From contig SWDP01000037.1 of NCBI GenBank assembly GCA_005116885.1, positions 117,473-152,817 of the forward strand: a stretch of 35,345 nucleotides of DNA, read 5' to 3'. Made by a program: the position numbers and the translations under genes. The notes below the pieces were generated by a model. It worked only from the letters and a program-made list of their open reading frames with translations, was not told where the DNA came from and ran no database searches. This stretch comes from Nitrospira sp. (GTDB lineage: Bacteria; Nitrospirota; Nitrospiria; Nitrospirales; Nitrospiraceae). Numbering within the stretch: position 1 is the stretch's first letter; each line of letters starts with the position of its first letter. This document shows positions 2,213-34,207 of the stretch, one piece after another.

Positions 2213-2375
2213 GCGCGGAGCAACCAGTCCCAGCGACGACCTGTATGGGCGTCCTGCGTATCTCATGTTTGAGTGCTGACAGGGGTATTAACACTCAGAT
2301 ATAGTTAGACAGGTCAGCGCCAAGTGAGCGGGTTACTGACCACCACCGATAGTGCGTCCAGTTACCATAAATTCC

Positions 2376-3083
2376 ATGAAGGGATTGGTTGCCGTGAAGC
2401 CGAAAGTCATCGTGGCCGATGATCATCGTCTTGTTGCCGAAGGCATCGTCAAAATATTGGAGAAGGCATATAGTGTGGTGGCGACGCCCGCAGATGGACG
2501 CAGCTTTATCGAGGCGGCTGAGAAGTTTCACCCTGATCTGGCAGTAGTTGATATTTCTCTTCCTCTGTTGAATGGACTGGATGCCTGCCGCCATGTGAAG
2601 AAATCCTGCCCGGAAGTCAAGATCATCATCCTGACAATGCATGCGGAGCAGCACTTTGTGAACGAAGCATTTCGTGTCGGAGTTGGAGGATACGTCTTGA
2701 AAACCTCGGTTGCGGATGAGTTGTTGTTTGCAGTAAATGAAGTCTTGCAGGGCCGCATGTACATTTCCCCGGTCGTGACGCAGGGTATGGTCAACCAGGC
2801 GTTGGAAACGACCACTCAGGCGCCGAAGCCTCCGGCAAGCACTCCAGTCGTAATGTTAAGTCTACGACAGAGGGAGGTCCTGCAGCTGGTGGCTGAGGGC
2901 AAATCCAACAAGGAAATTGCGTCTGCGATTAACGTAACGGTGAAAACCATTGAATTCCACAAGGCCAGAATCTCGAAGGAACTCGGCGTCCGCACCACGG
3001 CCGAACTGACGAAGCAAGCCATCTCCCTCGGGCTCATTGCCCCTCCCCAGGTATCTTCGACACCAAACGTCCACCCTAACTAA
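2376..3083 (+). CDS. NarL/FixJ-type LuxR-HTH response regulator
   Basis: REC domain (VIVADDHRLVAEG, VVDISLP, GYVLK) plus LuxR HTH (LSLRQREVLQLVAEGKSNKEIASAINVTVKTIEFHKARISKELGV). ATG 2376; GTG 2352 possible. Confidence 0.92.
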   Translation: MKGLVAVKPKVIVADDHRLVAEGIVKILEKAYSVVATPADGRSFIEAAEKFHPDLAVVDISLPLLNGLDACRHVKKSCPEVKIIILTMHAEQHFVNEAFRVGVGGYVLKTSVADELLFAVNEVLQGRMYISPVVTQGMVNQALETTTQAPKPPASTPVVMLSLRQREVLQLVAEGKSNKEIASAINVTVKTIEFHKARISKELGVRTTAELTKQAISLGLIAPPQVSSTPNVHPN

Positions 3084-3132: not shown

Positions 3133-3774
3133 TCAGAGCTCGGTCAGTCCCTGTACCAACGCAAACCTCGTCAGCTCGGCTATGGTCTTGATGCCGAGCT
3201 TATTCATGATCCCTGCCTTATGAAACTCCACCGTTTTCACGGAGATGCCTATCGTTGTGGCAATCGTATGTGTTGGAACACCATTGGCAAGCATGCGCAA
3301 GACCTCATGTTGCCGCGGTGTCAATTGGACGTGGTATCCATCGGGACGGCTCCACGGTTGCTCGATCGATTCCCGAACATCTGCCGCAACCTCAGGCGAC
3401 ACATAACGGCGGTTGTTCATCACCGTGCGGATAGCGGTCAGCAACTCGGTCGAAGCGGATTGTTTGAGGACGTAGCCGTTCGCACCCTTTCGAAACCCTT
3501 CGCTGACATAGAACGGCTCGCTGAGCATCGTCACGAGAATGATTTTTACTTGGGGCAGTTTCTGTTTGAGCAACGGGATGAGATCAAACCCGTTCGCGTC
3601 AGGCATCGAAATGTCCAGCAACACAATGTCCGGGGCCGCGCTCTGGGCATTCTCGAGAAGTTCCGCCCCACTATGAGCCGTGCCGACAATACGCGTGTCA
3701 TCGGCAAGTAACTGCCGAAACCCTTCCAATACCAAGAGGTGATCGTCGGCAATGAAGACCCGTGGTTGATACAT
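3133..3774 (-). CDS. NarL/FixJ-type LuxR-HTH response regulator
   Basis: MYQPRVFIADDHLLVLEGF..., VLLDISMPDANG, GYVLKQS, LTPRQHEVLRMLANG...ISVKTVEFHKAGIMNKLGI. Confidence 0.92.
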   Translation of the reverse strand: MYQPRVFIADDHLLVLEGFRQLLADDTRIVGTAHSGAELLENAQSAAPDIVLLDISMPDANGFDLIPLLKQKLPQVKIILVTMLSEPFYVSEGFRKGANGYVLKQSASTELLTAIRTVMNNRRYVSPEVAADVRESIEQPWSRPDGYHVQLTPRQHEVLRMLANGVPTHTIATTIGISVKTVEFHKAGIMNKLGIKTIAELTRFALVQGLTEL

Positions 3775-3842
3775 ATTTCTCCGAAGCGCTGTACTCAACC
3801 GAGACACCACGGTCATCGGCTGAACAATGACTAAGAGTGCAG

Positions 3843-3887
3843 ATGATATCACATCGCCAGGCAACACTAGCTGTGGTTTGCCCTAGT
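3843..3887 (-). promoter_or_regulatory. CTAGGG box ACTAGGGcaaaCCACAG plus -10 TATCAT (offset 39)
   Basis: Box starts at 3887 on the minus strand; TATCAT at 3848-3843; upstream of the RR at 3774. Confidence 0.45.
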
Positions 3888-4005: not shown

Positions 4006-4051
4006 ACTAGGGATTCTTCCAGTGGCACGGAGCTGCCTCCCACAGTAGTCT
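4006..4051 (+). promoter_or_regulatory. CTAGGG box ACTAGGGattcTTCCAG plus -10 TAGTCT
   Basis: Box at 4006; hexamer at 4046-4051, offset exactly 40. Confidence 0.5.
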
Positions 4052-4357
4052 AGAACATATGGAGTTCTTGAAGTGATTCACCATATGTCTCGGCAAAGGA
4101 TAGAAAGAATTAGGAGCTGCGCAATGGACAAGGACGAGAACTTGCGACTACCAAGGATTGTCACGCCGTCAACACCTTCCAGCAACGATCGCACACCCAC
4201 GAGAACCGGAGGACTGGAGCGGTCGGGTATCTATCTCGAATCCACCGAAGACGAACAAGGGGGAGTCCTCCCACACGAATGCACCTGCATCAAAGACGCT
4301 CGCAGATTGACCGCCCTCCCCGTTCGAGATTCCAGAGGCCTTCTTTCAGGAATAGTG

Positions 4358-4760: not shown

Positions 4761-5477
4761 CTACGAAGCAAGGACGACATTGAGGAGGGATCTGTGCACA
4801 TGCAATCCGTCGGTGTACTCAATGAATCCGAGCTTTTTGAATCTATTCAGAAAGAAACTCACTCGTGATCGGGTCGTACCGATCATTTCGGCCAGCGTTT
4901 CCTGACTGATCTTGGGAATAACCGCCTCTGGGCTATCTTCTCTCCCAAAATGGGCCAACAACAGCAGCGTCCGCGCCAGCCGTTTCTCCGCAGGGTTAAA
5001 AAGTTGATCGATCAAGTCCTCTTGTATGCGTACATTACGATTCACGAGATGAGACATGAACAGCTCGGAGAAGGCCGGCTCGTGCTGGAGCACGCGGCTC
5101 ATGGTGGCTCTGTCGATTCGCACAATCGTGGAGGCATCTAAGGAGGTGGCGGTCGACGAGCATACCCGCTGCCCTGCGAGACAGGCTTCGCCGAAAAAAT
5201 CCCCGCCTTCCAACATCGCGACGACAGCTTCTTTGCCTTGCCTTGACACGACGGTGAGCTTGACCCAACCGTTTACGATATAGAACACGGCATTGGCCGT
5301 ATCCCCTTGCGTAAAGAGAATCTGCTGTTTCCGACACTCCAGAGTCGCCCTTCCTTCTCCGGCCCCTGAGAGAATGGACGTGGAGTTGAATGGCATGGCT
5401 CGTTTGTGCGCCGGCGGCATCCCGTGAAGTGGTTTCAACGTCGGGGTGTGAGGTCTAGCTGAAATGTCGAGGTCCAT
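4761..5477 (-). CDS. Crp/Fnr family transcriptional regulator
   Basis: cNMP-binding fold (FTQGDTANAVFYIVNGWVKLTVVSRQGKEAVVAMLEGGDFFGEACLAGQ) and HTH (ISQETLAEMIGTTRSRVSFFLNRFKKLGFIEY). Confidence 0.93.
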   Translation of the reverse strand: MDLDISARPHTPTLKPLHGMPPAHKRAMPFNSTSILSGAGEGRATLECRKQQILFTQGDTANAVFYIVNGWVKLTVVSRQGKEAVVAMLEGGDFFGEACLAGQRVCSSTATSLDASTIVRIDRATMSRVLQHEPAFSELFMSHLVNRNVRIQEDLIDQLFNPAEKRLARTLLLLAHFGREDSPEAVIPKISQETLAEMIGTTRSRVSFFLNRFKKLGFIEYTDGLHVHRSLLNVVLAS

Positions 5478-5563: not shown

Positions 5564-5800
5564 TCATGCCGCGGCAGCATTCATCGCTTCGGGGCTAGAC
5601 AAGGAGCGGTTTCGAAGAATCACCTCGTCAACCATGTCGCCACATTGAATACAGCGGTGAGCCCAAAAGGTGCTATACCCGCTGTCGCTATCAAGATCGA
5701 TACACATTTCAATGCTCACGTATCCGCCGCATCGCCTACAGTTTTGTCGAGCGCATTTCTTTGTCGTCAACCCCGCTGTCCGGGAAAGGATTGTATTCAT
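5564..5800 (-). CDS. Small zinc-ribbon protein (CxxC...RCIQCG..VDE.ILRNR)
   Basis: MNTILSRTAGLTTKKCARQNCRRCGGYVS...HRCIQCGDMVDEVILRNRSLSS. Start at 5800 preceded by ggaggttcac. Paralogue at 33693-33956. The longer ORF start at 6145 reads through a repeat. Confidence 0.75.
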   Translation of the reverse strand: MNTILSRTAGLTTKKCARQNCRRCGGYVSIEMCIDLDSDSGYSTFWAHRCIQCGDMVDEVILRNRSLSSPEAMNAAAA

Positions 5801-5865
5801 GTGAACCTCCTCTCTATGGATTCGTCTGGTGTCGATGAGATGGTCTGCGCGTCTCGTATGTGCGT

Positions 5866-5911
5866 AACCTACCAGCGCCAGACTCGATACTTCCCTAGCG
5901 TCTACCCTAGT
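5866..5911 (-). promoter_or_regulatory. CTAGGG box ACTAGGGtagaCGCTAG plus -10 TAGGTT, with an extra upstream box at 5933-5927
   Basis: Box starts at 5911 on the minus strand; TAGGTT at 5871-5866 (offset 40). Further CCCTAG units at 5893 and 5927. Confidence 0.55.
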
Positions 5912-6029
5912 TTGAACGAGCAAGGACCCTAGCTCCCTCTGGTCTCCAGGCAGGCTGCCGGAAAAACTCAATTTATACACAAAATGCCGTAGGAATATTT
6001 CATATGGCGCCGATTCCAAAACAGGATCA

Positions 6030-6152
6030 GGATGCTCAAAATGGCCGTCCAGCAAGGCCGTAGTGAGCGAAGAGGCGAGGCGTAAGCTTCGGTACGTTGA
6101 GCCTCTGAGCGACACGAGAACGCCGCTGGCGGAATTTTTCAGCATCCTGCTA
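6030..6152 (-). repeat. Dispersed repeat copy B (short form)
   Basis: gatgctcaaaatggccgtccagcaaggccgtagtgagcgaagaggcgaggcg...gcctctgagcgacacgagaacgccgctggcggaatttttcagcatcctgct; same family as 391-580 in inverted orientation. Confidence 0.8.
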
Positions 6153-7821: not shown

Positions 7822-7867
7822 CCTAGGGGACTTCCTAGTGGGATTGATCATGGAATGGTGATGGAAT
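7822..7867 (+). promoter_or_regulatory. CTAGGG box CCTAGGGgactTCCTAG plus weak -10 TGGAAT
   Basis: Box at 7822; TGGAAT at 7862-7867 (offset 40). Lies between the divergent genes 7405-7752 and 7944-8219. Confidence 0.4.
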
Positions 7868-7943
7868 GCTGGAAGTAGGTGTAACGGCAAGTCCGAGGAT
7901 GGCAATTCCAATTGATTGTCGAGAGGCCGATAGGAGGCCGGAG

Positions 7944-8219
7944 ATGAAGATCGTCGAAAAGGGCCTATTTATCCCGATTTGCTGCGTGTGCGATCAAGTG
8001 AGGGACGATCAACAGACCAGTGAGCGGCCCACCGGCAGCGGTCTCGAGCAGTGGATGCCGTTGAGATCCTTCCTGCGTCTCTACCACGTTCCACACGATG
8101 CGTACAGGCTAACCCACACGTATTGCCCACGATGTATGGAGCACCTGGGGTATGATCGAAAGAAGTCTGAACCGAGGAAGCCTCTTCAGGAAGAGATCAG
8201 GCGCCGGATCATCTCGTGA
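7944..8219 (+). CDS. Small CxxC...YCPRC zinc-binding protein
   Basis: MKIVEKGLFIPICCVCDQVRDDQQ...QWMPLRSFLRLYHVPHDAYRLTHTYCPRCMEHL resembles the CxxCxxIRDD..W...SHgiCPeC element at the ends of many signalling proteins. Confidence 0.65.
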   Translation: MKIVEKGLFIPICCVCDQVRDDQQTSERPTGSGLEQWMPLRSFLRLYHVPHDAYRLTHTYCPRCMEHLGYDRKKSEPRKPLQEEIRRRIIS

Positions 8220-8490: not shown

Positions 8491-9597
8491 TCAGTTCGTG
8501 ACCGCCATCGGGCGCCGGTCGGTCTGGACCGCCTGGACGATTGATGCGCTGAACCGTCGATGCGACGCGGCGGAGGCGATCAGGCGCTGATATAAATGAA
8601 CATACTGATCCGCCATCCGCTCTCCGCTGAATCGTTTCTCAAAGACATTCCGGCACCCCTTTCGATCAAGGTCTTTGACCAATGGCAGCACGTGGACCAT
8701 CTCATCGAGACTGTCACAGGCGAATCCTGTGACGTGATCGTAGATCATTTCCCCCGCCGGTCCACCATGCAAGGCCACGACCGGTGTGCCACAGGCCAAG
8801 GCTTCCGCGACGCAGAGCCCAGAAGGGCTGGGCGAGCTCTGAGTGCAGAGGAGGGCCAAGGCTCCACCCAGGAAACTGATTTTCTCCGGCTCAGTTAGTT
8901 CTCCCAGCCATTCGACACCATTGCCGGCGATCAGCAACTTGCTCGGTATCGAGAAAAGCAGCCCGTCGATGCTGTTTTGCCGGGAGGCGACGCGAAGCGG
9001 GAGGTGTGCCCGCCTTGCGATTTCAATCGCCATCCCTAACCCCTTTCCCATGGATAGGCTGTCGATAAAGGCCAGATATTTTCCGGGTCGCGGATTGAAG
9101 CGATAGAGCTCAGACGGCACTCCCGGGTAGATGGTCTGCTGGCAAGACGCCCAGGCCAGAGGCGCCCGCTGTGTATCAGACGTGGCAACAAGCGGGAGGT
9201 CTCGAAATTGTTTGAAGACCGGAACATACTCCGGCAAATCGAGCCGGTCGTATAGGGTCGTGACCGTCGGGGTTGGACAGCGCTGGGCCATTGAAAAGCC
9301 GTCGATCCCAAAGTGCGAGTGAATGAGGTCGAATTCATCCGCGCGAGGCCCGAAGACCTCTTCGACGGCCAAGATCGCCGCACCAGCCCGACTCCAATTG
9401 TCCGGCGTTCGATCCAGTCGCGTCGAACACAGGACTTCAAGCGTAGCGCTGGTGCGTGAATCGGCGCCGGCAAACAGCGTGACCTCGTGGCCCCGGCGGA
9501 CGAGTTCCTCAGTGAGATACGACAGCGCACGCTCACTGTCCGAGGGGCCACGAGAAGACACGTTGTTCCACAGAGGTGCAATTTGAGCAATCTTCAT
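8491..9597 (-). CDS. GT4-type glycosyltransferase
   Basis: MKIAQIAPLWNNVSSRGPSDSERALSYLTEELVRRGHEVTLFAGADS...FDLIHSHF...SPSPSGLCVAEALACGTPVVALHGGPAGEMI. Confidence 0.88.
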   Translation of the reverse strand: MKIAQIAPLWNNVSSRGPSDSERALSYLTEELVRRGHEVTLFAGADSRTSATLEVLCSTRLDRTPDNWSRAGAAILAVEEVFGPRADEFDLIHSHFGIDGFSMAQRCPTPTVTTLYDRLDLPEYVPVFKQFRDLPLVATSDTQRAPLAWASCQQTIYPGVPSELYRFNPRPGKYLAFIDSLSMGKGLGMAIEIARRAHLPLRVASRQNSIDGLLFSIPSKLLIAGNGVEWLGELTEPEKISFLGGALALLCTQSSPSPSGLCVAEALACGTPVVALHGGPAGEMIYDHVTGFACDSLDEMVHVLPLVKDLDRKGCRNVFEKRFSGERMADQYVHLYQRLIASAASHRRFSASIVQAVQTDRRPMAVTN

Positions 9598-9676
9598 ACA
9601 GGGCCCTATCTTTATCGAATGGTTCCCTCTCCCATCGGCCTTTCGCGCGGACGTGAAAGGCCGTCACGGTGTCTCC

Positions 9677-9722
9677 TGTATATCGCATGTGGTTGGTGGC
9701 AAGTACTCTGATATTCCCTAGT
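9677..9722 (-). promoter_or_regulatory. CTAGGG box plus -10 TATACA, facing the glycosyltransferase
   Basis: ACTAGGG starts at 9722 on the minus strand; TATACA at 9682-9677 (offset 40). The second half-site is weak (TCAGAG). Confidence 0.5.
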
Positions 9723-9741
9723 CTACATTCGATTCGGAAAA

Positions 9742-9787
9742 ACTAGGGATTTTCCTAGGGGGACATGATCGGCGGCTCTTGTATGCT
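9742..9787 (+). promoter_or_regulatory. CTAGGG box ACTAGGGattttCCTAG plus -10 TATGCT, facing the CheB/CheR kinase
   Basis: Box at 9742; TATGCT at 9782-9787 (offset 40). Confidence 0.6.
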
Positions 9788-9918
9788 GCTGGCCGCTGAA
9801 GCATCGAGGGCGGCCGTGAGTCCTGGAGGAATCGGCCTACACAAAAGGTATCCGCGGCGATGATTGCCTTCCCCTCCCGGCAGAGCTAGAATCGGCTGTC
9901 ATTTCCCCGTCATCAACT

Positions 9919-12900
9919 ATGCCATCGCGCCGCACGCCATCCGCTGCTCGTACTACGAAGCGACGCCAGACCGTTGCGGTCCGTCCCGCTCATCCGCAGG
10001 TCGAGCCGGAGCAAAAGGACCGGCCGGACGATCGCAGTCATCGTATGCTGATTGTAGGGGTCGGCGCGTCCGCCGGAGGGCTGGAAGCCTTTACGCAGTT
10101 GCTCAAGCATCTGCCGCTGGATACCGGCATGGCGTTCGTGCTGGTGCAGCATCTCGATCCGAACCATGAGAGCGCGCTCACGCACATCCTTTCGCGCGCC
10201 ACATCGCTGCCGGTCGGCGAAGTCATGCACAATCAGCCGCTCCAGGCTAATCACGTCTACATCATTCCGCGCGACACGAATTTGAGCATCGTGGAGGGCC
10301 TGTTGAAGCTCGAGCGGCGTGAGCGGACGCGCACGCCGCATCGGCCGATCGATATGTTTTTTGAATCGCTGGCGCAAGACCAGCGCGAGCGGGCTATCGG
10401 CGTCGTGCTGTCCGGCACGGCCAGCGACGGCACGTTGGGGCTGGAGGCGATCAAGGCCGAGGGCGGGATCACCTTCGCGCAGGACGACTCGGCCAAGTAC
10501 GACTCGATGCCCCGCAGCGCCGTGGCCGCCGGCTGCGTCGATCTGGTTCTTTCGCCCGCGGACATCGCCAAAGAGCTGGTGCGCATCGGCAAGCATCCGT
10601 ACGTCGCCGGGCGCCCGCTCGAACTGCCGACGCGCGCGGAGAAGGATCACGAGCACGCGATCGGGCATCAGGATGACGATCAGCCGCTACCCTCGGGAGG
10701 ACGCGGAACCCCACCTACGGGTGGAAGGCAGGCGCGCGACGAGGCCGAGCGGGGAGAGAAGGACCCACCGAACGGCTACAAGAAAATCATGTTGCTTCTC
10801 CGCAACCATAGCGGCGTCGATTTTTCGCTCTACAGATCCAGCACCATCCAGCGGCGCATCGCCCGACGCATGGTCCTCACCAAGCAGCACAATCTGAAGG
10901 GCTACACGCGCTTTCTCCGGGGCAACGCCGGTGAACTCGACTCGCTTTTCTCCGACGTGCTCATCAGCGTCACGAGTTTCTTCCGCAACCCCGAAACGTT
11001 CGAGGCGCTCCAGCGCAACATCCTGCCCAAGCTCCTGACACAGCATGGGGACGATCCGATTCGTTGCTGGGTGCTCGGCTGCTCTACCGGCCAAGAGGCC
11101 TATTCCCTCGCCATGTTGTTGCTGGAAGCGGCGCGGAAAACGCCACACGCGCGAAAATTCCAGATCTTCGCCACCGACCTCAACGAGAAGCTCCTCGAAA
11201 AGGCTCGGCATGGCCTGTATGCGAAGACGCTCGCGCAGGACATCTCGTTCGAGCGCCTGCGGCAGTTTTTCGTCGAGGAGGACGGCGGCTACCGTATCAG
11301 CAAAGCGCTGCGAGACATGGTTGTGTTCGCGCGGCAGAACCTCATCGCCGATCCGCCCTTCTCACGCATGGACCTCATCAGTTGCCGAAATCTCCTCATC
11401 TATCTGGATCCGAGCCTGCAGCAGAAGGCGATGCCCACGTTCCATTACGCGCTCAAATCCCACGGATACTTGCTGTTGGGCGCCTCGGAATCGGTCGGCG
11501 AGTTCACGAGCCTCTTCGAACCGGTGGACCGGAAGCACAAGATCTTCTCCAAGAAGCCCACGCCGACCCCGGGGTTTCATATGCTGGTCAGGAAAGAGCA
11601 GGCCAAGCGAGCCGCACGGGGACCGCTGCCGCCTCTTCCGATCGGGAAGGCGAGCCTGCCGGATGGAGTGGAGCGGCTGGAGAATTTCCGCGGCGAACTC
11701 AACGCGCAGCGTGAGGCCGACCGGATCGCCATCAGCCAGTTCGCTCCGCCGGGGGTCTTGATCAACGACGCCCTGCAAGTACTGCAGTTCCGCGGGCCGA
11801 CGGGGGCCTACCTGGAGCCGCCGGCGGGCAAGGCGAGCTTCGACGTGCTGAAGATGGCGCGAGAAGGGCTGATGCTGCCGTTGCGTGCCGCCATCAACAA
11901 AGCCAAGCAGGGAAACAAGATCGTACGCACGGAGCGCGTGCGGGTCACGCGCGACGGCGTGATTCAGACGATCCACGTGGCAGTGATTCCGCTGAAAAAC
12001 TTGCGGGAGCGCTGTTTTTTGGTGGTGTTCGAAGAAGCGGGCGAGGCCGGACGCGCGACCGCCCTCGCGCCGCTGCGCCGGCAGCCGGCCGCGCTGCTTC
12101 CGAGCGCTCAACTGAAATTGCGCCGCATCGCCGAACTCGAAGCCGATCTCTCCGAAACCCGCGAGTATCTCCAGTCCTGGCAGGAGGAGCACGAAGCGGC
12201 CAACGAAGAACTCCAGGCGGCCAACGAGGAAGTCCAGTCCGCCAACGAAGAATTACAGAGCCTCAACGAGGAACTCGAGACGTCCAAAGAAGAGCTGGAG
12301 TCGGCCAACGAAGAGCTGACCACCGTCAACGAGGAAATGTTGAGTCGGAACGTCGAGCTCCACCGCCTCAACAGCGATCTGGTCAACTTCCAGAACTCGA
12401 CCAAGCTCGCCGTTGTGCTGCTGGGGCGCGACCTGACCATTCGCCGGTTCAGTCCGCAGGCGGAAAAGCAGGTGGGTTTGCTGGCAGCCGACGTCGGGCG
12501 GCCGATCGGCCACATCCGGCATACGTTCGCCTTCGCCGACGGCGGATTGCCGCTCGACCTGGAGACGCTCAGCGCCAAAGTCATTGCCGACGTGCGCGAG
12601 CAGGAACATGAGGTGCGGGACGCAAGCGGCTACTGGTATGCCCTTCACGTGCGCCCGTACGTGACGCTTGATAACAAGGTGGACGGCGCGGTGTTGGTGC
12701 TGGTGGACATCGATGCACTCAAGCGTGCCCGGCAGGCTAGCATCGTGGCGCAGGCATTTGCCGAGAACACGCTCGAGACGGTGCGCGAGCCGCTGCTCGT
12801 GCTTGATCGTCAGTTGCGTATCGACTATGCCAATCGCGCCTTCTACCGCTGCTTCCGCATCGGGCCGGTTGAGGTCATCGGTAGATTAATCTATGAAGTA

Positions 12901-15072
12901 AGCAACCGCCAGTGGGACATTCCGTCCCTGCGCATACTCCTCGATGAAATCCTCCCGCAGCGCACCACCATCGAAGATTTTCTCGTCGAGCACGAATTCG
13001 AGCATGTAGGCTTTCGCTCCATGCTGCTCAATGCCCGGCGCATCGAAGACCCCCTGTCCAAGGCAGAACGTATTCTCCTGGCCATGGAGGACATCACCGA
13101 ACGAAAAGAGAGGGACGCAGTGAAGGCCAGACTTTCCGCGATCGTGGAATCGTCGGATGACGCCATTATCGGCAAAAACCTTCTCGGCGTCGTGACCAGC
13201 TGGAACATGGGGGCTCAGCGGCTGTTTGGCTATACGGCTCAGGAAGCGATGGGCCAGCCGGTTGCCATCCTGATCCCACCGGACCGTCTGGACGAGGAAC
13301 CGCGCATGCTGGAGCAGCTCAGGCACGGTGAAAAAATGGATCGTTACCAGACCATTCGCCGGCGCAAGGATGGGAGCCGGGTGGACGTGTCGCTGACCGT
13401 CTCACCCATCAAGGACGCCCAGGGCCAGCTCATCGGCGCGTCGGAGATTGCGCGTGATATTACCGAGCGCGAGCTGCTGGAAGCAGCGATACGCCAGAAC
13501 GAGGCGTTGTTTTCCACCATCCTCGAGCAGGCGCCCGTCGGCATGTATATCGTCGACGCCCAATTTCGCATGCGGCAGGTCAACTCCCTGGCGCTGCCGT
13601 TGTTCAACGAGGTGAAGCCGCTGTTCGGCCGCGATTTCTCAGAAGTCATCACGATCCTTTGGGGTTCGGAGGTCGGCGGACAAGTCGCGGACATCTTCCG
13701 GCACACCTTGGAGACAGGTGAGCCGTACATCTCGCCCGGGTTTTCCAAACGACGCTTTGATCTCGACGTGGAGCAATCCTACCATTGGGAAACGCGGCGG
13801 GTGACCTTGCCAGACGGTCAGTGGGGAGTGGTGTGCTATTTTACCGACATCACTGCACGCAAGCGGGCCGAAGGGGAACTCGAACAGCGTGTGGTGGACC
13901 GCACACAGGAACTCTTGCAGTTGCACGTACAGCTGAGAGCGTTGACGACGGAATTGAACCTCACCGAGCAGCGTGAACGCCGGCGTCTGGCCACCGAGTT
14001 GCACGATCATCTGGCGCAACTGTTGGTGCTCGGGAAAATGAAACTGGGCCAAAGCAAGCGCCTGACTCAACCGCTGGAGAAACGCGACGAGCTGATCGAA
14101 GAAACGGACGCGGTGTTGTCCGAGGCTCTCGCGTATACGCGGACATTGGTGATCGATCTCAGCCCGCCGATCCTGCGCGAGTTCGGTTTACCGGCGGCGC
14201 TTCGATGGCTGGGCGAGCGGATGCAGCGGCATGAATTGATGGTGACGGTACAGATCGAGGTCGAAGACCTACCGTTACCGGAAGATCAAGCCGTGCTCCT
14301 GTTCCAATCGGTCCGCGAGCTGTTGATGAACACGATCAAACATGCGCGCTCCCACACCGCCTCGGTACGGATGCAGCAGGAGTCAGGCTCCTTGCGCATC
14401 GAGGTGCGCGACGAAGGCGTCGGCTTCGATCTTGAGGGGGATATTCAGACCTCCATATCTTCGAAATCTTCGAAGTTCGGACTCTTTAGCATACGCGAGC
14501 GCATGCGAGCGCTGGGCGGGCACTTCCATTTGAAATCCGCGCCAGGCGAAGGGGCGACGGCCACGCTGATCCTCCCGTTGATAGGGAGTCCTGAGACGAA
14601 AGTGCTGAGTCCGCTGAAAGACAGTTCTCAGTCCTTGCTGAGTGCTCAAGTGGATTCTCCTCAGCAGTCAAACCCCAGCACGCAGCACTCGAATCGGATT
14701 CGTGTCCTGTTGGTGGACGATCACGCCATGGTGCGGCAGGGCTTGCGCACGGTGCTGGACTCCTATCCAGACCTGGATGTGGTGGGTGAAGCGTGGAACG
14801 GTCAAGAGGCGGTGGCGTCTGCCGAACGGCTGCAGCCGTCCATCGTCGTGATGGACATCAATATGCCGATGATGAATGGGATCGACGCGACGACCGAGAT
14901 CGTCGCCCGGTATCCTGACATCGTCGTCATTGGCTTGTCGGTGCAAGCCGGTGGCGCCAACGAGGAGGCCATGAAGAAAGCGGGCGCCGCGATATTGCTC
15001 ACGAAAGAAGCCGCGGTGGATGAGCTCTACCAGGCGATTCTGCAAGCGCTAAAAGAAAAAGCGCTCGGCTAG
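9919..15072 (+). CDS. CheB-CheR-coiled-coil-PAS(n)-HisKA_3-HATPase-REC hybrid sensor kinase
   Basis: CheB triad regions GVGASAGGLEAF, VLVQHLDP, SGTASDGTLG. CheR FSLYRSSTIQRRIARRM...VTSFFRNPETF...WVLGCSTGQEAYSLAM. Repeated NEELQ heptads. PAS domains. RERRRLATELHDHLAQLLVLGKMKL. C-terminal REC RVLLVDDHAMVRQGL...VVMDINMP. Confidence 0.95.
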   Translation: MPSRRTPSAARTTKRRQTVAVRPAHPQVEPEQKDRPDDRSHRMLIVGVGASAGGLEAFTQLLKHLPLDTGMAFVLVQHLDPNHESALTHILSRATSLPVGEVMHNQPLQANHVYIIPRDTNLSIVEGLLKLERRERTRTPHRPIDMFFESLAQDQRERAIGVVLSGTASDGTLGLEAIKAEGGITFAQDDSAKYDSMPRSAVAAGCVDLVLSPADIAKELVRIGKHPYVAGRPLELPTRAEKDHEHAIGHQDDDQPLPSGGRGTPPTGGRQARDEAERGEKDPPNGYKKIMLLLRNHSGVDFSLYRSSTIQRRIARRMVLTKQHNLKGYTRFLRGNAGELDSLFSDVLISVTSFFRNPETFEALQRNILPKLLTQHGDDPIRCWVLGCSTGQEAYSLAMLLLEAARKTPHARKFQIFATDLNEKLLEKARHGLYAKTLAQDISFERLRQFFVEEDGGYRISKALRDMVVFARQNLIADPPFSRMDLISCRNLLIYLDPSLQQKAMPTFHYALKSHGYLLLGASESVGEFTSLFEPVDRKHKIFSKKPTPTPGFHMLVRKEQAKRAARGPLPPLPIGKASLPDGVERLENFRGELNAQREADRIAISQFAPPGVLINDALQVLQFRGPTGAYLEPPAGKASFDVLKMAREGLMLPLRAAINKAKQGNKIVRTERVRVTRDGVIQTIHVAVIPLKNLRERCFLVVFEEAGEAGRATALAPLRRQPAALLPSAQLKLRRIAELEADLSETREYLQSWQEEHEAANEELQAANEEVQSANEELQSLNEELETSKEELESANEELTTVNEEMLSRNVELHRLNSDLVNFQNSTKLAVVLLGRDLTIRRFSPQAEKQVGLLAADVGRPIGHIRHTFAFADGGLPLDLETLSAKVIADVREQEHEVRDASGYWYALHVRPYVTLDNKVDGAVLVLVDIDALKRARQASIVAQAFAENTLETVREPLLVLDRQLRIDYANRAFYRCFRIGPVEVIGRLIYEVSNRQWDIPSLRILLDEILPQRTTIEDFLVEHEFEHVGFRSMLLNARRIEDPLSKAERILLAMEDITERKERDAVKARLSAIVESSDDAIIGKNLLGVVTSWNMGAQRLFGYTAQEAMGQPVAILIPPDRLDEEPRMLEQLRHGEKMDRYQTIRRRKDGSRVDVSLTVSPIKDAQGQLIGASEIARDITERELLEAAIRQNEALFSTILEQAPVGMYIVDAQFRMRQVNSLALPLFNEVKPLFGRDFSEVITILWGSEVGGQVADIFRHTLETGEPYISPGFSKRRFDLDVEQSYHWETRRVTLPDGQWGVVCYFTDITARKRAEGELEQRVVDRTQELLQLHVQLRALTTELNLTEQRERRRLATELHDHLAQLLVLGKMKLGQSKRLTQPLEKRDELIEETDAVLSEALAYTRTLVIDLSPPILREFGLPAALRWLGERMQRHELMVTVQIEVEDLPLPEDQAVLLFQSVRELLMNTIKHARSHTASVRMQQESGSLRIEVRDEGVGFDLEGDIQTSISSKSSKFGLFSIRERMRALGGHFHLKSAPGEGATATLILPLIGSPETKVLSPLKDSSQSLLSAQVDSPQQSNPSTQHSNRIRVLLVDDHAMVRQGLRTVLDSYPDLDVVGEAWNGQEAVASAERLQPSIVVMDINMPMMNGIDATTEIVARYPDIVVIGLSVQAGGANEEAMKKAGAAILLTKEAAVDELYQAILQALKEKALG

Positions 15073-15260: not shown

Positions 15261-15283
15261 GCAGACTTTTTCAGCATCCTGCT
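15261..15283 (-). repeat. Terminal fragment of the dispersed repeat (copy C)
   Basis: gcagactttttcagcatcctgct matches the termini of copies A and B and abuts the CTAGGG box at 15281. Confidence 0.5.
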
Positions 15284-15326
15284 AGGGGTTTTCCTAGTTT
15301 AGCATCAGAGCCCCTTGCTCTATACT
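15281..15326 (+). promoter_or_regulatory. CTAGGG box GCTAGGGgtttTCCTAG plus -10 TATACT
   Basis: Box at 15281; TATACT at 15321-15326 (offset 40); upstream of the three-gene signalling operon. Confidence 0.65.
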
Positions 15327-15453
15327 CGCCCTACTGAATCGGCGCAGACATGTCGATGCGGCATAGACATACCGCCTTCATTCATCCACGTCACGCGGTC
15401 CAATTGTGTGTTTTCATGGGGAAGTTGATGGAGAAATCTTCGCGTTCAACAAC

Positions 15454-18087
15454 ATGGAACGAAGAGAGATGACCATGGGGCCGGCCGGTCTCCGCTGGAA
15501 GCTCGAGGACGCCGTGACGATCGCATTGGCCGCCGTTGGCGTCCTGGGTGTGTTCGTCTTGGACCTCCTGACCCCGCGTGGCTACGTGGTGTGGATTGGG
15601 TATGGCTTGCCGCTGTGGGCCGTGTCCCGGCTTCCGACCAAAACAACCGCCCTGCTTCTTGCCACGGCGCTCGCCTGCACCGGATTGATCGCCACGGCGT
15701 ATGTCCTGTCACCCCCTGGAATTGATCTGGTCATCGCTCTTGTGAATCGGGCATTGGGCGCCGGATTTCTGTGGATCATGACCATCGTACTTCTCAGGCA
15801 GAGAGCCACTGACGAACAGTTCAGAGCCGCCCAGGAGCGCCTTCAACAGAACGAGGCGCGTTATCGGGAACTCGTCCAGGCTCTTCCCGCAGCCGTGTAT
15901 ACCTGCGATGAGCGTGGCCGGATCACGCTTTATAATCAAGCCGCGGTCGCCGTGTGGGAGCGTGAACCGGAAGTTGGCAAGGATCTGTGGTGCGGATCGT
16001 GGAAGATCTACCGGCCGGACGGCGCTCCGCTTCCCTTGGACGAATGTCCGGTGGTGGTCACCTTGCGCGAAGGCCGTGCGATTCACGGTGAAGAGATCGT
16101 CGTCGAGAGGCCAGACGGCACGAGACGCCATGTCCTGTTGCACCACGAGCCCATGCGGAACGCAACGGGAACGGTCGTCGGCGCGGTGAATATGCTGATG
16201 GACATTACCGACCGTAAACAGGCCGAGCATGCAGTGGCGCATCTGGCGGCGATTGTGACATCGTCCGGCGATGCGGTGATCAGCAAGGATCTGCGGGGGA
16301 TTGTCCGCAGCTGGAATGGGGCAGCGGAACGTCTGTTCGGATATACGGCGGAGGAAATGATCGGGCAGCCGGTGAGTTTGCTCATCCCTCCCGATCGGGA
16401 CAATGAAGAACCCGACATTCTCAAACGGATCGAGCGAGGCGAAACGATCACGCAGTATGAAACGATCCGGCGTCGAAAAGACGGGACCGATCTGCACATC
16501 TCTCTGACGGTATCTCCGCTCATCGATCCTCACGGGAGAGTCATCGGAGCCTCAAAAATCGCGCGGGATATTACGGAGCAGAAACGCGTCGAGAATGCTC
16601 TGCGTCGTAGTGAACAGGATCTCTCCGACTTCTTCGATAATGCCAGCACCGGCCTGCACTGGGTCGGACCGGACGGCATCATTATGCGAGTGAACCAGGC
16701 TGAGCTGGATCTGCTCGGATACAGCCGTGAGGAATATGTCGGCCATCACATCGCCGAATTTCACGTCCATCAGCCTATCATTCAGGATATCCTCGGCCGG
16801 CTGGCCGGTGGTGAAACCCTGCGCGAATATCCGTCGAGAATCCGATGCAAAGACGGTTCGATCCTCGACGTGCTCATCAATTCAAATGGTTTGTTCGAGG
16901 AGGACAAGTTTATCCATACCCGCTGTTTTACCCGTGACGTGACCGCCCGCAAGCGTGGGGATAAGGCGCTGAGGGAAAGCGAGGAGCGTTTTCATACGTT
17001 GGCCGATAATATGTCGCAGTTCGCGTGGACGGCGGACCCCACGGGCTGGATCTTTTGGTATAACCAGCGTTGGTATGAGTATACCGGTACGACGTTCGAG
17101 GAGATGCAGGGCTGGGGGTGGGAGAAGGTTCATCATCCAGACCATCTCGATCGTGTTGTCACCAAATGGCGGCACGCGCATGTCACAGGCGAGCCGTGGG
17201 AAGACACATTTCCGCTGCGCGGCCTTGACGGAACTTACCGCTGGTTTCTCTCGCGAGCATTGCCCATTCGGGATGCAGAGGGTCGAATCGTTCGGTGGTT
17301 CGGCACCAACACGGACATCACCGAGCTGCGCGAGGCGCAAGCTTCTCTGCTCATCAGCGAGGAACGGATAAAGAAGCAGGCGTCTGCATTGGCCGAAGTA
17401 AACAAGGAACTGGTATCCTTTTCCTATTCGGTCTCGCACGACTTGCGAGCCCCGCTGCGGACGATCGACGCCTTCAGCCGCATCGTGGAAGAAGATCATG
17501 GCGCTCATTTGAATGCCGAAGCGAGTCGCTGCTTGACCATCGTCCGAAAGGCTGCCGGTTATGCAGGCGAATTGATCGACGATCTGCTGGAGTTTTCACG
17601 GCTGGGTCGGCAGGACATGGCTTTCAGTGTGGTCACGATGGAGCAATTGGCGCGTGAGACGGCAGAGGATCTGAGGACCATGCAGGGAGACCGTCAGATT
17701 CATCTCACCGTGGGGACTTTGCCCCCGTGTCAGGGAGACCCGCGGTTCCTGAAACTCGTCTGGACCAATTTGCTCACCAATGCCTTCAAGTACACCAAGA
17801 ATCGGAATGAGTCCAGCATCGAAGTCGGGTGGATACCGGACGACGCGAGCGTGGAGGCGGTGACGTACTATGTCAAGGACGACGGTGTGGGGTTCGACAT
17901 GAAATACGTGCACAAGCTGTTCAACGTGTTTCAACGGTTGCACCGGAAAGAGGATTTCGAGGGCACCGGCGTCGGACTGGCTATCGTGCATCGCATTGTC
18001 CTCCGCCACGGAGGGCGGATATGGGCCGAAGGCAAGGTGGACGGCGGCGCCACGTTCTTTTTTTCCCTGCGAAAGGCTACGGCATGA
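15454..18087 (+). CDS. Membrane PAS-domain sensor histidine kinase
   Basis: N-terminal TM helices ([37 protein letters not shown]), multiple PAS/PAC, His[27 protein letters not shown], HATPase [13 protein letters not shown]...DDGVGFD...[13 protein letters not shown]. Confidence 0.93.
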
Positions 18088-22105: not shown

Positions 22106-22151
22106 CATATACCGCGGCCATGGAAGAGCGAGGACTGGGTTGTTCCCTAGT
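22106..22151 (-). promoter_or_regulatory. CTAGGG box ACTAGGGaacaACCCAG plus -10 TATATG (csbD-like gene)
   Basis: Box starts at 22151 on the minus strand; TATATG at 22111-22106 (offset 40). Confidence 0.6.
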
Positions 22152-27025: not shown

Positions 27026-27505
27026 TTACTTCTTCTTGGGGGCCTTCTTTGCCGTCAACTGTTCCTTGCGCTTCACGACTTGGGAACAGAGTGCTTCCCA
27101 ATCGATCTCGCAGTCTTCAGCCTTCGAAAACATTTCTGCCTCTTCTTCCTTAATGTGATGCCGGACGTTCTCGGCCAGCACGGTAAACTTGGCATCGTAG
27201 CGTTCGTCGCTGGGCTTCATTTTCTTCAGTTCCCCGAGCAGCCCGTGCACGACATGATGCTCCTCAAGCGCCTCATTCATCAGGTCATCGTCATCGATTT
27301 CCGCGCGAATGGCCGGATAGATGAGTTCTTCCTCCAACTTGCTATGCACCTCCAGTTCCATCAACGCCGTCTCGACGATCTGCTGTTTTGCTTTGGTGTC
27401 TTCGGCCTGCTCGAATTTATCGAAGAGACCCTTCACTTTCTTATGGTCTTCCCGAAGCATGTCCGTTACCGATGACGCGCCGGCTTCCTGAGATTTGGTA
27501 AACAT
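27026..27505 (-). CDS. Hemerythrin HHE-domain protein
   Basis: LREDHKKVKGLFDKFEQ...LMELEVHSKLEEELIYPAI...ALEEHHVVHGLLGEL...VRHHIKEEEAEMF. Confidence 0.9.
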   Translation of the reverse strand: MFTKSQEAGASSVTDMLREDHKKVKGLFDKFEQAEDTKAKQQIVETALMELEVHSKLEEELIYPAIRAEIDDDDLMNEALEEHHVVHGLLGELKKMKPSDERYDAKFTVLAENVRHHIKEEEAEMFSKAEDCEIDWEALCSQVVKRKEQLTAKKAPKKK

Positions 27506-27649
27506 GAGCGATCCTCCCTTTGATGAATAAATGAAATCGGGTACTCGACGATTACGAATGGAAACGATTGCAACGCCCATCTCGCGTGACACGCGCCGCC
27601 ACATCTTTCCAATAGCGTCTTCATCGCTATTGTTTCTCTCACCGTTCTG

Positions 27650-27695
27650 ATTATGCCGTGGCCGAGGAAGGTATAAGACTGGGTTCTACCCTAGT
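27650..27695 (-). promoter_or_regulatory. CTAGGG box ACTAGGGtagaACCCAG plus -10 CATAAT (hemerythrin)
   Basis: Box starts at 27695 on the minus strand; CATAAT at 27655-27650 (offset 40). Confidence 0.6.
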
Positions 27696-29043: not shown

Positions 29044-29601
29044 TCAGCCTCCTGATCGGCCTGAAAGAACCGCACGCGTAGCACGGACTGTCTCGCGCGC
29101 GTTGACAATCACGGGCACCCCAAGCAGCCATAACGGTTTTTGCTCTAAGCTTTGACGTCGCTGTACCACGTGTGTCGTCAGACGCTCCCAGTCCAGGTCT
29201 GTCTGCTCTGCGAGGGGGAACATCTTCCCCTCCTCGTTGATATGGTGTGTGACCTGGTCCCTGAGGGCCGTACACATGGACTCATATCGCTTATCCTCGG
29301 GATCCATGTTCTTGAGCGCGTTGACCAGCGCGTGAACGATATGGAGTGTCTCGCGAACCTCGTCCATCAGATCCAGGCTCTGCTCGTGAACATGTTCCCG
29401 CCAGGCAGGGTAAATGAGTTCCTCTTTGAGCCTGGTATGGACTTCCAGGACTGCGAGAGCTTCCCTCACGATTTCCGGTTTCTTTGTCATCGTCGTGTTG
29501 TCAAACTGTTCAAACAGCTGTCTAAGATTACGATGGTCTTCACGGAGCATCAACGTGATAAAGGTAGCTCTGGCCTCGATCGTCTGTGCCTGATTCGCCA
29601 T
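29044..29601 (-). CDS. Hemerythrin HHE-domain protein (second copy)
   Basis: LREDHRNLRQLFEQFDN...LAVLEVHTRLKEELIYPAW...VTHHINEEGKMFPLAEQTDLDWERL. Confidence 0.85.
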   Translation of the reverse strand: MANQAQTIEARATFITLMLREDHRNLRQLFEQFDNTTMTKKPEIVREALAVLEVHTRLKEELIYPAWREHVHEQSLDLMDEVRETLHIVHALVNALKNMDPEDKRYESMCTALRDQVTHHINEEGKMFPLAEQTDLDWERLTTHVVQRRQSLEQKPLWLLGVPVIVNARETVRATRAVLSGRSGG

Positions 29602-29728: not shown

Positions 29729-29774
29729 ATGATTGCATGGGTCCGGCCGACCCACCACTCGGAGTTCCCCTAGT
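29729..29774 (-). promoter_or_regulatory. CTAGGG box ACTAGGGgaacTCCGAG plus weak -10 AATCAT
   Basis: Box starts at 29774 on the minus strand; AATCAT at 29734-29729 (offset 40); upstream of hemerythrin 29601. Confidence 0.45.
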
Positions 29775-33692: not shown

Positions 33693-33956
33693 TCACATCC
33701 GGACGGTCTGTTGCCGGGTCGGTGTCTCCCGTCTTCTGGACACCACGCGGTTCCGCAGGATGATTTCATCGAGCCACTCGCCACACTGGATACAGCGCAA
33801 CGACGGCATCTTTCTATCAATGGACAGGCTGAACTCCTCATCTCTGGTCAAGAGCCCGCCGCATCGCCCGCAGGCACTCATCCCAAGAAGCACGCCATTC
33901 CACCGATGATCGTCCGGTTTATCTCCGTCAGAGTTTCGTAGTCTTCTGTCTGTCAT
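33693..33956 (-). CDS. Small zinc-ribbon protein, paralogue of 5564-5800
   Basis: MTDRRLRNSDGDKPDDHRWNGVLLGMSACGRCGGLLTRDEEFSLSIDRKMPSLRCIQCGEWLDEIILRNRVVSRR. Confidence 0.7.
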   Translation of the reverse strand: MTDRRLRNSDGDKPDDHRWNGVLLGMSACGRCGGLLTRDEEFSLSIDRKMPSLRCIQCGEWLDEIILRNRVVSRRRETPTRQQTVRM

Positions 33957-34161
33957 AGCGACCTCCACAATGAATTGCCGTCTCTTGTGTTGTGTATGGT
34001 TGTAGCAAGCTTCGCCATATCGATGACCTGGCAAATACCCCAGCTCTTGGACCATTTACCCCTGGTTGAGCTGTTGTCCTGTTTTTCTATGCCTCTCCAC
34101 ACTGTCTCCCCCCGGAGGTTGAACCGTTTCGGTGAACGGGCATGACAACCGCCCATCATCA

Positions 34162-34207
34162 ATCATACCGTCGAGATCGCGTAAGAGGAGCTAGGACGTT
34201 CCCTAGC
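34162..34207 (-). promoter_or_regulatory. CTAGGG box GCTAGGGaacgTCCTAG plus -10 TATGAT
   Basis: Box starts at 34207 on the minus strand; TATGAT at 34167-34162 (offset 40); upstream of zinc-ribbon gene 33956. Confidence 0.6.

Follow-up and report, generated by a model that had tools for sequence, protein, structure and literature searches.

A divergent promoter region of Nitrospira with putative LuxR-type operators facing a glycosyltransferase gene and a CheB/CheR hybrid kinase gene

Introduction

Class II promoters of the lux box or LuxR type carry a palindrome of ~20 bp that is centred near position −42, takes the place of the −35 element and is bound by proteins with a LuxR-type HTH. Kinases with a HisKA_3 domain are of the type usually paired with LuxR-type response regulators. 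A different arrangement is found in the alphaproteobacterial EcfG regulon, whose targets include CsbD and catalase; CsbD and KatE are members of general stress regulons. Among described LuxR-family systems, CrbR, which acts at the Pseudomonas ACTU promoters, depends on an imperfect inverted repeat that spans −52 to −36 (PMC5715377). Our literature search on CTAGGG-type motifs, stress regulons of Nitrospira and CheB/CheR kinases in stress responses returned nothing on the Nitrospira system considered here.

Nitrospira, among them the complete ammonia oxidisers close to CG24A, are central to nitrification and hard to manipulate. Here we describe a window of 35,345 nucleotides (the whole stretch of DNA analysed) from a 3.19-Mb Nitrospira draft genome that is 84% complete. 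We consider it likely that positions 9677–9787 of this window form a divergent pair of class II activator-dependent promoters, at which a LuxR/NarL-type response regulator would act on inverted repeats (IRs) and which would feed a GT4-type glycosyltransferase gene and a sensor kinase gene.

Results

The divergent region lies between the gene for the GT4-type glycosyltransferase (368 aa; 8491–9597, − strand; Pfam PF00534/PF13439) and that for a hybrid kinase of 1717 aa (9919–15072, + strand) with the Pfam domain order CheB-CheR-PAS-HisKA_3-HATPase-REC. The kinase corresponds to a fusion of two proteins of other Nitrospira, a CheB/CheR-PAS protein of ~1030 aa and then a kinase of HisKA_3 type, with a REC domain as an additional C-terminal part. 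The first-pass annotation had reported two ACTAGGG boxes 20 bp apart, at 9722→9716 (−) and 9742–9748 (+), each with a hexamer that starts 40 bp from its own box, TATACA at 9682→9677 (−) and TATGCT at 9782–9787 (+), and a re-check of the sequence found all of these positions to be exact. The letters and place of the box are therefore right, but the heptamer is not a complete element: it is one arm of an 18-bp IR. Likewise, the offset of 40 stands and is recast as the length of the IR (18) plus 22 bp to the −10 hexamer, a spacing that recurs genome-wide.

The GT4-facing IR, ACTAGGGAATATCAGAGT (9705–9722, −), has two arm mismatches relative to ACTAGG-N6-CCTAGT, and its right arm (CAGAGT) matches at 4/6 positions. 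The kinase-facing IR, ACTAGGGATTTTCCTAGG (9742–9759, +), has one mismatch, and a third CTAGGG, at 9755, is part of its right arm. The centres of the two IRs are 37 bp apart. Each IR would occupy about −52 to −35 of its promoter, with predicted transcription start sites (TSSs) near 9670 for the GT4 gene (−10 at 9677–9682, −) and near 9794 for the kinase gene. A weak −35-like GGGACA is present at 9759–9764 (+), 17 bp from the −10 hexamer, and is not conserved at other IR sites.

The IR was defined by aligning all CTAGGG sites, each on its own strand, which revealed a second conserved arm 12 bp beyond CTAGGG and the consensus ACTAGGG-N5-CCTAGT. An initial reading as a direct repeat, CTAGGG-N6-CTAGGG, was dropped after this alignment showed the repeat to be inverted. 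The heptamer ACTAGGG occurs eight times in the window, where 1.3 are expected, and IRs with ≤3 mismatches occur 17 times, where six are expected; in neither case did any of 100 shuffles reach the observed count. With ≤1 mismatch, the IR is found at 16 places in the genome, six of which are in this window that makes up 1.1% of it (binomial about 1e-8), the genome-wide counts being derived from sequence searches and selected stretches of the genome.

A TA dinucleotide at exactly +22 follows nine of these 16 IRs (background 1.7; p = 9e-6), and it follows 20 of the 54 IRs with ≤2 mismatches (background 4.5; p = 5e-9), a set that comprises all listed IRs of this kind and includes many chance sites. 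Both −10 counts are restricted to the source genome; counts in its relatives are inflated by orthology, and another offset is equally high there. No conserved −35 hexamer was found between IR and −10 in the aligned set, as expected if a bound activator takes its place, and the two arms of the IR show about the same degree of conservation. With the TSSs as predicted, the palindrome overlies or replaces the −35 element, has its centre close to the −42 of class II promoters and is followed 22 bp downstream by a TA-initial −10, a predicted geometry typical of class II activation by LuxR-family regulators.

Further IRs are distributed across the window. Four precede signal transduction or unassigned genes: 2195–2212, between the gene at 632–2011 (−) and a response regulator gene starting at 2352 (+), with TATAAG at +22 on the − side; 3870–3887 (−; three mismatches, two in CG24A), just upstream of the response regulator gene at 3133–3867; 4006–4023 (+), upstream of the ORF at 4073; and 15281–15298 (+), upstream of a PAS histidine kinase gene (15406–18087), with TATACT at +22. 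Three are upstream of genes for small proteins: 5894–5911 (−), before a zinc-ribbon ORF that occupies the 3′ part of 5564–6145, with a CRP-family gene (4761–5477) further down; 7822–7839 (+), before a small Cys-motif ORF (7866–8219), an IR that has no TA at +22 and is a perfect palindrome in CG24A; and 34190–34207 (−), before the zinc-ribbon ORF at 33693–34055, with TATGAT at +22. Three others are upstream of a CsbD gene (22134–22151, −; TATATG at +22) and of two hemerythrin genes, at 27026–27604 (IR 27678–27695, −; CATAAT) and 29044–29601 (IR 29757–29774, −; a weak AATCAT).

The small zinc-ribbon family (CxxC ... RCxxCG ... ILxNR) follows IRs in several genomes; besides the C-terminal part of 5564–6145 (−) and 33693–34055 (−), neither of which has a Pfam match, it includes L217 70–489 (−). 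A second small family with the motif CCxCxxxRDD is represented by 7866–8219 (+) and by a protein encoded downstream of 12283 (+) in L030.

Correctly oriented genes just 3′ of IRs, largely of stress or signalling type, include those for the GT4 enzyme, the CheB/CheR kinase, the second PAS kinase, CsbD and the two hemerythrins, as well as genes for small proteins with zinc ribbons or Cys motifs, a response-regulator protein, a membrane protein resembling YgaP and a protein of polyketide-cyclase type. Genes for a long-type catalase and for BrkB, YtxH and AI-2E-type proteins are interspersed in the window as neighbours of IR genes and are not assigned to IR promoters. The IR appears to mark some two dozen genes in the genome, mostly of stress type. 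The genome-wide IR set resembles general stress regulons, with CsbD and KatE as points of comparison, and looks like a regulon of that type. Independent support for a stress-type regulon comes from EcfG-type promoters at alphaproteobacterial homologues of the GT4 gene. The EcfG-type motif GGAAC-N16-17-GTT is present upstream of 11/31 of these homologues, compared with 2.2% of random same-locus stretches and 3/31 on the opposite strand. It was found upstream of none of 44 GT4 homologues outside the Alphaproteobacteria and was not found upstream of the CG24A GT4 gene. One EcfG-like GGAAC-N16-17-GTT precedes the GT4 homologue of Nitrospira sp. HEB_FP_1_bin.25 (L074) by ~119 bp, a single case that may be due to chance.

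Among named relatives, Nitrospira sp. CG24A (NEWT02000029.1; G027) is the closest; its GT4 gene (85%), kinase gene and intergenic region are all alignable. Each of the divergent IRs retains 12/12 arm bases (24/24 in all), compared with 69–73% identity in the flanks, and the TA is kept in both −10 hexamers (TACACA on the GT4 side and TATGGT on the kinase side). Over ten alignable window sites, identity is 96% in the arms, 88% in the spacers, 91% in the −10 hexamers and 85% in the flanks (arms versus flanks, p = 2e-4). In another genome (G025), the GT4 gene is a relic of which only residues 307–368 remain, with an internal stop and without the 5′ part (L232 931–1116; G025:C284). The kinase gene is still present there and is preceded by an intact kinase-facing IR whose −10 is TATACT, whereas the GT4-facing IR has lost, in its better arm, one base that is almost invariant. 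This pattern fits an assignment of each IR to its own gene, although a single base is weak evidence. The earlier proposal of a divergent promoter pair, one promoter per gene, that shares element and spacing is borne out by the arrangement, IR arms and −10 TA kept in CG24A, and this combination of element and spacing is found repeatedly in the genome and in the genus. With the exact offset of 40, this conservation and recurrence make co-control of the GT4 gene and the sensor kinase a well-supported prediction.

The IR is probably read by a LuxR-type response regulator. The window encodes two REC-LuxR (GerE) candidates in convergent orientation, RR2352 (2352–3083, +; Pfam PF00072 and PF00196), whose homologues adjoin IRs in other genomes, and RR3133 (3133–3867, −), and the convergent pair is also present in G032, G081, G025 and G027. 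We sought RR2352 homologues in 61 genomes and compared them with exact IR positions. Such a homologue lies ≤7.5 kb from 15/36 exact IRs, with 0.51 expected, and is present in 18/19 IR-bearing genomes versus 20/42 genomes in which no exact IR occurs (Fisher p = 3e-4); owing to the relatedness among these genomes, the linkage counts are not independent samples. A REC-GerE regulator is thus both present in the genome and linked to IR sites, as for class II promoters of the LuxR/NarL type. Perfect IRs are located 150 bp upstream of the RR3133-type regulator of the convergent pair in G032 and, in G030, 114 bp ahead of the RR2352 homologue. G089/G094, from a different family within the order, have two response regulator genes in tandem, with perfect IRs in the gap and behind the second gene, and TAT falls on +22 or directly beside it.

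The genus-wide cluster has the order IR, CheB/CheR protein, kinase, response regulator, IR and second REC protein. This second regulator is apparently REC-only, with no HTH, and has an IR directly upstream (L030, downstream of 8860 (−); L217 8111–8608 (+); L214 14894 (+)). The layout varies: in several clusters, the −10 of the IR 5′ of the CheB/CheR gene lies towards the divergently transcribed neighbour, so that this IR points away from the CheB/CheR gene, an orientation that counts against the LuxR-type activator model, as does the poor right arm of the GT4-facing IR. The initial RR2352 homologue search yielded ~45–125 candidates per genus genome, so that several LuxR-type regulators may be the binder, and by tblastn the linked regulators almost all have the same generic recognition helix, T-V/I-E-F-H, which singles out none of them. 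Candidate readers are RR2352 and/or RR3133, or one of several LuxR-type paralogues.

Alternative explanations

The IR could instead be the operator of the CRP/FNR-family protein encoded at 4761–5477, which we consider unlikely. CRP/FNR relatives, too, recognise palindromes with a centre near −41.5 and act as class II activators, the gene is in the locus and probably downstream of an IR promoter, a CRP homologue lies ≤7.5 kb from 5/36 exact IRs (0.3 expected), and the presence of IR and CRP homologue is correlated across genomes (Fisher p = 5e-4). However, a CRP homologue at 1e-30 is missing from 7/19 IR-bearing genomes, including the complete or near-complete G005, G008 and G032, all seven of which have LuxR-type regulators, and the sequence surrounding the g32 IR clusters and the G032 pair, in pieces of 16–20 kb, yielded none. 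A CRP/FNR-dependent class II promoter is disfavoured, as this regulator is not found wherever the operator is.

It is about equally improbable that the kinase-facing promoter alone is real and that the half-perfect GT4-facing IR is decayed or auxiliary. The weak right arm would suit this explanation, and two IRs at this distance could serve a single promoter. Nevertheless, the TATACA on the GT4 side is at exactly +22, both arms are unchanged in CG24A, no alternative GT4 promoter was identified, and GT4 homologues elsewhere are stress-promoter genes.

Somewhat less probable still is an alternative sigma factor that recognises ACTAGGG as its −35-type element with no activator. In favour of this, the spacing to the −10 is fixed, all Nitrospira examined have several sigma-70-family proteins, and most carry a 331-aa RpoS-like group-2 sigma. 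By contrast, the element is palindromic with a similarly conserved right arm, is centred near −43 rather than −35 and precedes a −10 of sigma-70 type, and exact IRs track a LuxR-type regulator; these features disfavour the sigma-only explanation. The RpoS-like sigma apparently has no counterpart in a few genomes, such as G015, G018 and G020. Its best rpoS_proteo scores (319–334 bits) are below the curated cut-off of 378.7, which disfavours an RpoS-directed regulon, although the RpoS-like sigma exists and may have a role. An EcfG/PhyR general stress response, sought as NepR together with GGAAC-N16-17-GTT, was also rejected: NepR was detected in the positive control, Caulobacter, and in 0/32 genomes of the genus, which argues that this is not an EcfG/PhyR system. 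Both sigma-70 and the RpoS-like group-2 sigma are candidates for transcribing IR promoters.

Chance CTAG-rich words in a promoter region are very improbable as an explanation: 7-bp motifs by themselves are weak evidence, but the shuffles, fixed +22 spacing, footprint conservation and regulator linkage all speak against chance.

Discussion

The preferred reading, built on the computed motif, spacing, recurrence, conservation, linkage to regulator genes and target types, is that of paired LuxR-type activator promoters. In the mechanism that we infer, as regards binding and activation as the direction of control no less than the phosphorylation route and the signal, a LuxR/NarL-type response regulator would bind each 18-bp operator at about −52 to −35 as a phosphorylated dimer. 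At both promoters the operator would stand in place of a good −35, with the TA-initial −10 lying 22 bp downstream, and the bound regulator would recruit RNA polymerase leftward to the GT4 gene and rightward to the CheB/CheR-PAS-HisKA_3 kinase gene. Given its HisKA_3 domain, the kinase is a likely input of the LuxR-type pathway, and its own rightward promoter would then give positive feedback.

More broadly, and only tentatively, Nitrospirales may possess a general-stress-type regulon in which HisKA_3/CheB-CheR kinases and LuxR-type response regulators act through one 18-bp palindrome, without a dedicated stress sigma switch and with kinases and regulators inside the regulon as feedback. A compact operator with fixed spacing would offer a testable operator-regulator pair and make the regulon predictable from sequence, and the giant CheB/CheR kinase and the GT4 gene would turn from orphans into likely members of a stress pathway.

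Comparison with known systems

The EcfG regulon is similar in its overlapping target types and in that homologous GT4 genes have EcfG-like promoters; it differs in using an ECF sigma with PhyR/NepR. The lux box system resembles the proposed Nitrospira one in palindrome size, predicted centre, predicted replacement of the −35 element and LuxR-type HTH, whereas quorum-sensing LuxR has an autoinducer domain where the Nitrospira candidates have a REC domain, and the palindrome sequences differ. CrbR is likewise a LuxR-family response regulator with an imperfect inverted repeat just before an RpoD promoter, the symmetry of which is needed for activation (PMC5715377). Its geometry matches that of the Nitrospira IR at about −52 to −35, the CrbR promoters being tested and the Nitrospira promoters predicted (PMC5715377). 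The CrbR system has another repeat sequence and serves acetate-gene promoters, and the available part of its report describes no divergent pair (PMC5715377); it is not known to be related to the Nitrospira system. The divergent region looks like a known kind of promoter in an undescribed LuxR-type stress regulon.
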